In this document: piece after piece, positions 14,677-55,812 of the stretch
How positions within the stretch are numbered: the first letter of the stretch is position 1
Layout: the number at the start of each line of letters is the position of its first letter
Source: Lysobacteraceae bacterium
GTDB lineage: Bacteria; Pseudomonadota; Gammaproteobacteria; Xanthomonadales; BQJN01
Length of the DNA stretch: 64,000 bases
Assembly (NCBI GenBank): GCA_021604725.1
Contig: BQJN01000005.1
Span: forward strand, 1-64,000
Reading direction: 5' to 3'
Position numbers and translations under genes: made by a program
Notes under the pieces: generated by a model
The model's database searches: none
The model's input: the letters and a program-made list of their open reading frames with translations, nothing else
Told to the model about the DNA's origin: nothing

Positions 14677-14721
14677 CCAAGCTCGCCGCGATGCATGGAC
14701 GTATTGCCCTTGCGGTGGGTC

Positions 14722-15291
14722 TTAAGCGAAGGAAGGGTGGCGAAAACAGCTGGTGACGTGGTCGTTAACCATACCGGTCGCTTGCATAAAGGCATAACAG
14801 ATGGTGCTTCCTACGAATCTGAACCCGCGTTTTTTCAAGGCTTTGCTCATCTGGTCGGATACGGCGGTCGATGCCGGCACCTCAGAGAGAGCCTTCCACT
14901 GATTGATTACCGGCTTGTGGTCGACAAACGACCAAAGCCATCGGCCAAACTGTTCGCCCGACGCATTCATCGATTGAATCACCTTGGCATTGTTTATGGT
15001 GGAACTGACTTTCAGTTTGTTGCGGACAATGCCGGCGTCAGCCATCAGGCGTTGATAGTCGTGATCAGAAAACGCAGCCACCGTCGCGATGTCAAAACCG
15101 GCGAAAGCTTGCCGATAGTTTTCGCGCTTGCGCAAGATGGTCAGCCAACTCAGGCCCGCCTGTGCCGCCTCCAGGGTCAACATTTCAAACAATGTTTGAT
15201 CATCGTAGACCGGGATACCCCATTCCTGGTCATGATAGGCCACATACTGCGCATCATCACCACACCAACTGCATCGCGTCACGCCTGTCAT
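14722..15291 (-). CDS. tag: DNA-3-methyladenine glycosylase I
   Basis: Tag removes 3-methyladenine from alkylated DNA in base excision repair. The protein starts MTGVTRCSWCG and continues YVAYHDQEWGIPVYDD, the classic N-terminus, and ends with HVTSCFRH. The conserved Cys and His residues at both ends form the zinc snap of Tag proteins. ATG 15291 is chosen over a longer frame from 15336 because relatives begin near here. It is the first of three alkylation-repair genes in the window, the others being near 54 kb. Confidence 0.95.
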   Translation of the reverse strand: MTGVTRCSWCGDDAQYVAYHDQEWGIPVYDDQTLFEMLTLEAAQAGLSWLTILRKRENYRQAFAGFDIATVAAFSDHDYQRLMADAGIVRNKLKVSSTINNAKVIQSMNASGEQFGRWLWSFVDHKPVINQWKALSEVPASTAVSDQMSKALKKRGFRFVGSTICYAFMQATGMVNDHVTSCFRHPSFA

Positions 15292-15383
15292 GCAACCACC
15301 CAATAGCCCTTGCCGAAGTTGCCAGATTGTAAGCAAATCGGTAAGTCATTGCGCTTGGAGTTTTCGTCTCGTTTGCTCCCCTT

Positions 15384-29543: not shown

Positions 29544-29863
29544 CTTTTCTGCGTGTGGAGGCTATCGCGAAACTACAGCCTCGCGCGATACAGGGATGTA
29601 TCGCCATTTCGGTGGGTTTTAACCCTTTGAAATGTAAGGGTTTCGAAAACCACGCTTTCGGAATCCGTGGTGTTGCTAGTCTAGAGGTCGTCCACGATTA
29701 GCCATCCGTGGCTAACGCGGACACGGGTTTCAAGGAGCGCGGTCATTGAAACCCTTCATTTTCAACAAGTTGGAAAATGCTGGCACTTCCGTGTGCCAGG
29801 GCGAGCGCGTCAAAAGACCTATCCGTGGACGCGCTCTAGTCCAGGACGGACTATTGCAACACC
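29544..29863 (+). repeat. Structured repeat form B, interrupted by a form A copy
   Basis: This is a 5'-to-3' series of hairpins: GAGGCT/AGCCTC (29558-29582), GCGATACA/TGTATCGC with a GGGA loop (29585-29604), CATTTC/GAAATG enclosing GGGTT/AACCC (29605-29634), and GGGTTTCGAA/TTCGGAATCC with loop AACCACGCT (29638-29666; 10 pairs, two of them G.U). GGTGTTGC at 29669-29676 pairs with GCAACACC at 29856-29863 and closes the element. Form A (29680-29835) sits inside that last pairing. The uninterrupted relative lies at 55512-55672. No gene is present between 29500 and 30083. Confidence 0.8.
29680..29835 (-). repeat. Structured repeat form A, inserted copy with CTAG direct repeats
   Basis: This 156-bp element is the inverted equivalent of the tandem units at 45165-45584. 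On the plus strand it shows TTAGCCA/TGGCTAA with loop TCCG (29698-29715), GGGTTTCAA/TTGAAACCC with a 12-base loop (29725-29754), CATTTTC/GAAAATG-type pairing, TGGCAC/GTGCCA (29781-29798) and GAGCGCGTC/GACGCGCTC (29803-29836). The tetranucleotide CTAG flanks it at 29676-29679 and 29836-29839, and the sequence left after removing it matches the empty site at 55.6 kb. This indicates insertion, probably with a 4-bp target duplication. Confidence 0.75.
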
Positions 29864-29885
29864 CTCTGGGGTTTTTTGCCTTTTC

Positions 29886-45146: not shown

Positions 45147-45164
45147 CTTGGGCCTAGGCGCTAA

Positions 45165-45584
45165 ATTGGCCAGCCATTTTCAAGCCATTGAGAATGAAGG
45201 GTTTCAATGACCGCGTTACTTGAAGGCCGTGTCCACGTTCACCATGCATGGCTAATCGTGGACGACCACTAAATAGAGCGCGTCAACAGTTTACTTTTTT
45301 GGGCCAGCTCTACCGGTCCACGGATGGGCCGGCATTTTCAAGTTATTGGAAATGAAGACCTTTCATAACCACGCTTCTGAAAGTTCGTGTCCGCGTTGGC
45401 CACGGATGGCTAATCGTGGAGGACCATTAAATAGAGCGCGTCCACAGTTTACTTTTTTGGGCCAGCTCTACCGGTCCACGGATGGGCCGGCATTTTCAAG
45501 TTATTGGAAATGAAGAACTTTCATAACCACGCTTCTGAAAGTTCGTGTCCGCGTTGGCCATGGATGGCCAATCGTGGACGACCT
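45165..45584 (+). repeat. Tandem array of three form A structured repeats, period 158 bp
   Basis: CATTTTCA recurs at 45175, 45333 and 45491, and AGAGCGCG at 45275 and 45433, giving a period of 158. Unit 1 lacks its left part; units 2 and 3 are nearly identical. Each has a variable stem around a loop read TAACCACGCTTC in units 2 and 3 (stem GAACTTTCA/TGAAAGTTC in unit 3, 45515-45544), a CATTTTC pairing with GGAAATG (units 2 and 3) or TGAGAATG (unit 1), and TTGGCCA/TGGCYAA around a 4-base loop. The array fills the gap between gyrB and gmhB and touches the last codons of gmhB. No other gene is in this 489-base gap. Confidence 0.85.
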
Positions 45585-46133
45585 TCAAATAGGGTAACGC
45601 GCCAGCAATGTTTCGGCCGCAGAAGCCAGATCGCGATGTAGCGTCACGCCGTCAACGTCGGTGAGAAACCCGAGCGATGTTGAACCGCGGCCAGTTTTCA
45701 CCAGGATGGCTCTCAACCCGCACTGACTGGCACTGACAATGTCTTCCTGACCATCACCGATGATCGTCACGGTGTCTCGCTCCACGCGGTAGCGTTCTAT
45801 CAGATCCTCAAACAGGTCCGCTTTACTTTGAATCTCAGTCTTGGAGCGGCGAGCGACTTTAGGTGCAAAAACCACCGCGTCAATTTTACCCCCGGCCTCT
45901 TGCACGGCACCCAACATGGCCTCATCGATCGCATGAAGTGTTTCTACGTTTAGCGCCTTGCGACCCAGGCCACCTTGATTGGTGGCGATCACCACGGCAA
46001 ACCCCCCTTGTGACAGTTTGGCGATCGCTTCGACGCTACCAGGGATCGGCTTCCAATCCTTGATCGCGCGCAAGCCGCCATCTACGACCTCGTTGACGAC
46101 GCCGTCACGCCCCAGTATAACCAGGCCCCTCAT
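45585..46133 (-). CDS. GmhB-like HAD protein, probably inactive phosphatase
   Basis: By length (182), fold and position next to glyS this is the D-glycero-D-manno-heptose 1,7-bisphosphate phosphatase GmhB. However, the nucleophile motif LDRDG is LGRDG here (Gly8, codon GGG, for Asp). The CxH...CxC zinc loop and the RKP lysine motif that follow the YCPH segment in relatives are gone (VVFAPKVARRSKTE instead). The TNQGGLGR and GDGQEDI motifs remain. It therefore seems to be a degenerate enzyme, or one given a new binding role. It overlaps glyS by 4 bases. Confidence 0.78.
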   Translation of the reverse strand: MRGLVILGRDGVVNEVVDGGLRAIKDWKPIPGSVEAIAKLSQGGFAVVIATNQGGLGRKALNVETLHAIDEAMLGAVQEAGGKIDAVVFAPKVARRSKTEIQSKADLFEDLIERYRVERDTVTIIGDGQEDIVSASQCGLRAILVKTGRGSTSLGFLTDVDGVTLHRDLASAAETLLARYPI

Positions 46134-55511: not shown

Positions 55512-55672
55512 CTTTTGCCGCCTGTGAGGCTGTTGCGAAACTGCAGCCGTCTCGATACACGGACGTATCGCAGATTTCGATGGGCCCTAAGCCATTGAAA
55601 TGTAAGGAACCCGATAACCACGCTTCTCGGGTTCCGTGGTGTTGCTAGACCAGGACCGACGATTGCAACACC
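55512..55672 (+). repeat. Structured repeat form B, uninterrupted copy
   Basis: It mirrors 29544-29863 without the insertion. GGCTG/CAGCC (55528-55548) keeps the GCGAAACT loop. CGATAC/GTATCG (55553-55570) and ATTTC/GAAAT (55574-55601) follow. GGAACCCGA/TCGGGTTCC is a perfect 9-bp stem around TAACCACGCTTC (55606-55635), and GGTGTTGC (55638-55645) closes with GCAACACC (55665-55672). Two stem pairs of the fourth hairpin are fully exchanged against the 29.6-kb copy. It lies 33 bases after ogt. Nothing else is visible between 55479 and 55813. Confidence 0.82.
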
Positions 55673-55812
55673 TTGCTATGCAGAACAAGCGGCCAAATCG
55701 AGGTTTCGATGAAAACCATGGTCCCTCAATTGATGCCTGCTCGCCGGCAATTCGATTCCGCCTTCCGTGGCAGAATCCTCATCGCGTTGGACGGTCGAGT
55801 CAACTACCCACC

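Follow-up and report, generated by a model that had tools for sequence, protein, structure and literature searches.

We found that the structured intergenic repeats of a Lysobacteraceae bacterium are MITEs of two families, A and B, which are non-autonomous and are recognised by their terminal inverted repeats, 4-bp duplications, nesting, multiple copies and lack of an ORF. Both families carry the same series of hairpins on one strand, and two of the hairpin loops match the binding site of CsrA/RsmA. Both the mobile nature of the repeats and the match to the CsrA/RsmA site had been missed in the original prediction, which was made from a single stretch of 64,000 nt (the window) and described a family of folded repeats with covarying stems and one conserved loop. 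Judging from sequence, we consider it probable that the MITEs bear a conserved RNA module which binds CsrA/RsmA, and that each expressed copy would act as a dispersed decoy or tag. MITEs are known and CsrA-binding RNAs are known; the new part would be their combination.

All copies and stems named in the original prediction were located in the window (Table 1). Forms A and B are both present at 29.6 kb, as had been described, with the correction that A lies inverted inside B, whose H5 is thereby split; in other B copies H5 is found without interruption as TAGTCC-AGGAC-GGACTA. Where three A units had been proposed at 45 kb, two are complete and stand in tandem, while the first is merely a degenerate unit. 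In the B element at 55.6 kb, H5 and the right end (CACCTTG) are partly decayed. No ORF of ≥100 aa was identified within the window copies. The fold of a single A unit lies 5 SD (DNA parameters) to 6 SD (RNA parameters) below dinucleotide shuffles.

Table 1. Elements of families A and B in the window and their parts (CM, covariance model R1; TIR, terminal inverted repeat).
Feature	Position	Strand	Description
B element with nested inverted A inside	29558..29866	+	TIR GAGGCTATCGCG ... TTGCAACACCCTC; CM match 29584-29697, 78.2 bits
B sequence proper at 29.6 kb	29558-29682 + 29838-29866	+	either side of nested A
B hairpin H1	29558..29582	+	left terminal repeat paired with internal complement, GAGGCTAT..ACAGCCTC; pairs counted across B copies
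B hairpin H2	29585..29604	+	GCGATAC-AGGGAT-GTATCGC, CsrA-type loop; AUACAGGGAUGU fits SELEX consensus RUACARGGAUGU (PMC7652899)
B hairpin H3	29605..29634	+	CATTTC...GAAATG; covariation
B hairpin H4 (main hairpin of the original prediction)	29638..29666	+	loop CCACGC; covariation
B hairpin H5	29670..29863	+	right terminal repeat GTGTTGC..GCAACAC; split by nested A
A element inserted in B	29683..29837	-	H2 subtype CTGGCAC-ACGGAA-GTGCCAG; CM match 29691-29800 minus, 102.5 bits
AGTC on both flanks of nested A	29678-29681 and 29838-29841		read in sequence
CsrA-type loops of nested A	29703 and 29786	-	hairpin scan
Degenerate left-truncated A unit, first in tandem array	45159..45270	+	CM match 45159-45262, 43.7 bits
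Complete A unit	45275..45428	+	101.2 bits; CsrA-type loops 45319 (H2), 45401 (H5)
Spacer AAAT, 4 bp, between tandem A units	45429..45432	+	ARYT-like target duplication
Complete A unit	45433..45586	+	107.5 bits; CsrA-type loops 45477 (H2), 45559 (H5)
Second B element	55526..55675	+	stem type GGAACCC/GGGTTCC; H2 loop ACACGGACGU at 55558

The original prediction depended on further copies being found in this or related genomes, and both kinds exist. In the host genome, a 4.68-Mb draft of 210 contigs that is about 90% complete, a covariance model of the shared core built from 31 sequences (R1) finds at least 150 copies, all with E<1e-10, and BLAST yielded at least 41 B and at least 51 A matches. 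A elements are 154 bp long and end in AGAGCGCGTCCAC...GTGGACGACCTCT, B elements measure about 150 bp and end in GAGGCTGTCGCGAAA...TTGCAACACCCTC. Terminal inverted repeats, which define a MITE, are present at both ends (AGAGSKCGTCCAC in A, GAGGSTGTYGCRA in B), and the termini of the two families are unrelated to each other. Of the solo elements, 23 of 51 A (6.1 with permuted flanks) and 11 of 32 B (0.7 with permuted flanks) lie between exact direct repeats of 4 bp; this excess is confined to 4 bp and absent at neighbouring lengths. Tandem arrays of A share one 4-bp spacer, and 15 of 17 arrays are arranged head-to-tail.

With their length of about 150 bp, the absence of an ORF, inverted repeats, 4-bp duplications, multiple copies and intergenic location, A and B resemble other bacterial MITEs. 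Some MITEs are mobilised by IS5-group transposases, with 4-bp YTAR duplications (ISfinder). CTAG, TTAA or TTAG flank several related elements in other genomes, whereas in the host genome A prefers ARYT targets and B uses mixed 4-mers. As dispersed palindromic intergenic repeats, A and B are also similar to REP, BIME and REPIN sequences. REP and REPIN, however, have a GTAG-type foot, while the conserved ends here are AGAG/CTCT and GAGG/CCTC; the original prediction could not match the repeats to REP, and indeed no GTAG/GGAG-type foot is present beside the hairpin. Terminal repeats together with 4-bp duplications argue for a DDE-type transposase and against a REP-associated tyrosine transposase. 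Regarding an autonomous partner with B ends, lone B ends were checked at 16 places of the roughly 90% complete draft and no transposase was found between paired ends. Instead of an autonomous transposon sharing B ends, these places yielded only B copies with internal deletions and matches due to chance. An internally deleted B of about 85 bp (L294:2107-2190) has kept H1, H2 and H5 and lost H3 and H4, and paired B ends at L295:403-487 show the same spacing.

The hairpin series shared by A and B comprises H2, H3 (CATTTTC/GAAAATG), H4, a 12-bp stem with a YCRCRY-type loop, and H5. "C" elements from two related genera of the order have the same core inside CTAGCAGSSTGTYGAAAAA ends, and elsewhere the core lies between CAGGCTGTTGAAAAA, GGAASCTCTGATT or B-like and C-like ends; GGAASCTCTGATT...-type ends in other genomes occur alongside YTAR-like duplications. 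Since the same core is found under several terminal types, either the core moves between terminal types or the ends are swapped around it. We know of no MITEs with a conserved covarying internal RNA core kept through an exchange of terminal repeats. Of the genomes of the order, 17 out of 250 gave R1 matches. For the Gammaproteobacteria as a whole this was the case in 59 out of 369, mostly with multiple copies, and for a phylum sample in 45 out of 399, the majority of these outside the Gammaproteobacteria. Among the carriers with a name are Thiorhodococcus drewsii AZ1 (Chromatiales) and draft genomes of Lysobacterales. Pattern searches of genome contigs yielded 15 matches with H2-based DNA and none with H4 core DNA, and no elements were found in the viral contigs, plasmids and phages searched. 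The elements at the JAPULC loci L125, L126, L131, L132 and L135 form a divergent subfamily, in which H3 is much longer and the left hairpin varies between copies yet is always palindromic.

The stems covary strongly. Of 37 pairs, 34 changed on both sides in the alignment across genomes and 27 in that from the host genome. The cross-genome covariation score is 0.572, compared with 0.170 for column shuffles and at most 0.164 for slid partners. Covariation above chance, on which the original prediction rested, was found in three alignments, with none of 500 column shuffles reaching the observed score. Copies were located in the first extraction by their H2 and H5 stems and H4 was left unused; H4 covaries as strongly as the two stems used for finding copies. 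In the main stem the copies at 29.6 and 55.6 kb differ exactly as first described, by two fully compensatory and two G.U-to-Watson-Crick changes, and 36 B copies divide along the same line.

Regarding the strand, G.U combinations outnumber A.C combinations across genomes (85 vs 36 cells, p=1e-5, the cells being non-independent), among distinct pair-column types in the host genome (66 vs 37, and 18 vs 4 for the common ones) and among its shared variants (26 vs 9). In 127 of 143 copies the better fold is that of the plus strand. A role as double-stranded DNA alone would give equal numbers of G.T and A.C; as G.T prevails, one strand folds, and this is the strand whose loops read ANGGAN. Correction of quasi-palindromes was rejected as the source of the covariation because it alone gives neither the asymmetry of G.U over A.C nor the loop pattern. 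A strand-specific conserved fold is thus well supported, and the function as folded RNA that had been proposed at the outset is supported: the fold likely acts at the level of RNA and less likely at that of single-stranded DNA. The latter is nevertheless the basis of the main rival explanation, namely that during transposition or replication one strand of the MITE forms the hairpins as single-stranded DNA, which would serve as folded ends or as a recognised hairpin, and that the resemblance to CsrA sites is a coincidence. The termini and 4-bp duplications are those of an ordinary double-strand cut-and-paste transposon, for which internal hairpins are unnecessary, and the core was retained while termini were exchanged; we therefore regard this explanation as unlikely, although it too predicts the covariation and the excess of G.T over A.C, and is in line with the random orientation to genes, with a constraint seen in the spreading lineage (see below) and with the position of the terminal repeats within H1 and H5. 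Also against it, we know of no DNA mechanism that requires A-N-G-G-A-N loops in which the free positions are just the two of CsrA sites.

The conservation of the loops follows this pattern closely. Among 62 H2 hairpins from other genomes, with 17 different stems of 5 bp, 61 have A at loop position 1 and all 62 have GGA at positions 3–5, with the caveat that 15 loci came from a pattern fixing CANGGATG and that R1 itself contains GGA; positions 2 and 6 are occupied by all four bases. Most R1 matches score far above threshold, so the loss of GGA alone would not hide such copies. H5 carries either an ANGGAN hexaloop or an AGGAN pentaloop, with GGA in most cases. More than one hairpin therefore presents an ANGGAN hexaloop directly on its stem, as expected of the sequence of a CsrA/RsmA-binding RNA. 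The high-affinity site of RsmE is an ANGGAX hexaloop directly on a stem, and AGGAX pentaloops were found in SL3 and SL4 of RsmZ (PMC4005645). For CsrA, SELEX gave the consensus RUACARGGAUGU with AC/GU pairing under a six-base loop (PMC7652899), which AUACAGGGAUGU in H2 of B matches exactly. The same study noted that very stable stems may disfavour CsrA binding (PMC7652899), and the stems of the elements are long, which counts against binding.

In the window we counted 11 CsrA-type hairpins, compared to 0.6 in dinucleotide shuffles, and 8 of the 11 are located inside elements. A CsrA-type hairpin at 14694-14701 on the plus strand (GCGATGC-ATGGAC-GTATTGC) has a stem of 7 bp if G.T pairs are counted and overlaps the ATG of an ORF at 14695-15306 (203 aa, without Pfam match); it is similar to H2 of B and may be either a remnant or a site at which CsrA acts directly. 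A C-ANGGAN-G hairpin with the loop ACGGAA and a 9-bp stem lies on the minus strand at 55762-55769, about 90 bp past the B element at 55.6 kb and outside the elements found by the model.

The loop AACCACGCT stressed by the original prediction is conserved as stated, but two other loops are conserved as well. In H4 the hexaloop is NCRCRN with A-T closing pairs (e.g. 29650-29655), and its conservation comes close to that of the GGA loops. We know of no role in CsrA binding for the conserved H4 loop, which counts against the CsrA reading. The elements could instead be mobile structured RNAs with another partner, for example a transposase or another protein bound via H4, and the GGA loops would then serve a different role. 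The H4 hexaloop, almost as conserved as the GGA loops and without the character of a CsrA site, speaks for such a partner; yet the two further loops fit the CsrA consensus in every main subfamily and the host has a canonical CsrA, which makes this explanation quite improbable.

Rfam gave no match at gathering threshold over the elements, neither in the window nor in 20 loci including related copies. The nearest relevant family is RF01731 TwoAYGGAY (clan CL00106, together with PrrB/RsmZ), with best scores of 25.2 bits in the genome and 21.4 bits in the window (cut-off 43 bits, E about 0.3-1). TwoAYGGAY was proposed as a CsrA binder by Gardner and Eldai (PMC4333381). It has two stable hairpins with AYGGAY loops, comparable to H2 and H5 with ANGGAN or AGGAN here, but in its model the two GGA hairpins are adjacent, without H3 and H4 between them, and a transposable-element nature is absent from its descriptions in the literature examined. 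The sRNAs CsrB/CsrC and RsmX/Y/Z likewise contain several GGA-loop hairpins fitting the CsrA/RsmE consensus and act as CsrA decoys, as by analogy the elements would; they are however single-locus sRNA genes, whereas the sites described here lie on transposable copies, at least 150 in number, with terminal inverted repeats. An open-access search, with most subscription journals outside it, returned no literature that joins MITEs or REPs with CsrA or describes the element family. TAACTGA repeats of Beggiatoaceae were rejected as a precedent, being different repeats for which their own authors judged CsrA targeting unlikely, and for an IS200-derived sRNA CsrA was merely suggested as a candidate.

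The host encodes one detected intact csrA, the product of which is 80% identical to E. coli CsrA; the adjoining ORF, as read from the sequence, we take to be alaS-like. An A element (L121:196-304, minus strand) is located about 1.15 kb downstream of this sole detected csrA (L121:1450-1656, minus strand). By our tally csrA is not enriched among element carriers (52 of 59, compared with 313 of 369 overall), which counts against the CsrA reading. No csrA was detected in the carriers G371 (L217; 95% complete) and G485 of the same genus (55% complete). The one copy read from these carriers retains the GGA loops.

Based on our own codon-usage gene predictions, 101 elements or arrays were placed between called genes. 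The neighbours are convergent in 42 cases, co-directional in 45 and divergent in 14. The enrichment between convergent over divergent genes would suit a cis-acting RNA maintained by the host in 3' regions for stability, termination or insulation of the neighbours, as proposed for REP/BIME, and so would the strong hairpins and the C-type H5, which is similar to an intrinsic terminator. Between co-directional genes, however, no orientation bias exists (22 sense vs 23 antisense), which counts against a host function, and termination needs no conservation of loops. The mutations of resident copies point in the same direction. Variants shared by several copies kept pairing in 43 cases and broke it in 27, whereas private variants kept it in 41 and broke it in 91 (Fisher p=4.5e-5); private mutations are not depleted at the A and GGA loop positions either (6 observed and 4.7 expected in A elements, 4 and 5.8 in B elements). 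As resident copies spare neither loops nor pairs, we consider maintenance by the host rather unlikely. Shared variants keep pairs while private ones break pairs and hit loops, so the constraint appears to act in the spreading lineage and not in resident copies, which favours a role at the level of the element. A general benefit of each copy for the host is unsupported, the power of these tests being modest, and the first beneficiary is probably the element itself.

According to the mechanism we favour, transposases recognising the terminal inverted repeats would move the elements, each insertion duplicating 4 bp, and thereby spread a one-stranded module of H2 with its C-ANGGAN-G hexaloop, H3, H4, and H5, whose loop is either an ANGGAN hexaloop or an AGGAN pentaloop. 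The element RNA would fold in a sense read-through transcript, and one CsrA/RsmA dimer could reach, and presumably bridge, both H2 and H5. An expressed copy may then be a decoy for CsrA, or mark the message upstream with a CsrA tag, with a possible effect on the host or on transposition. As a point against this mechanism, we noticed neither a promoter nor a terminator belonging to the element. More tentatively, and with some doubt on our part, a CsrA-binding cassette may be passed between MITEs of different termini and kept since binding aids the spread of the element, constituting a phylum-wide selfish class that exploits Csr/Rsm. The benefit for spreading might lie in relief of repression of the transposase message, or in stabilising or silencing the read-through RNA, and hundreds of CsrA decoy sites would be scattered incidentally in the host genome.

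In many Proteobacteria the balance between CsrA/RsmA and its RNA sites sets decisions on central metabolism, motility and biofilm. If the elements indeed bind CsrA, a transposon with near-optimal CsrA sites, present in 100-300 doses per genome, would shift this balance, and each insertion would rewire regulation. This would provide a new reason for the conservation of a MITE interior, and possibly a mobile-DNA origin of CsrB/RsmZ-type sRNAs and TwoAYGGAY RNAs.
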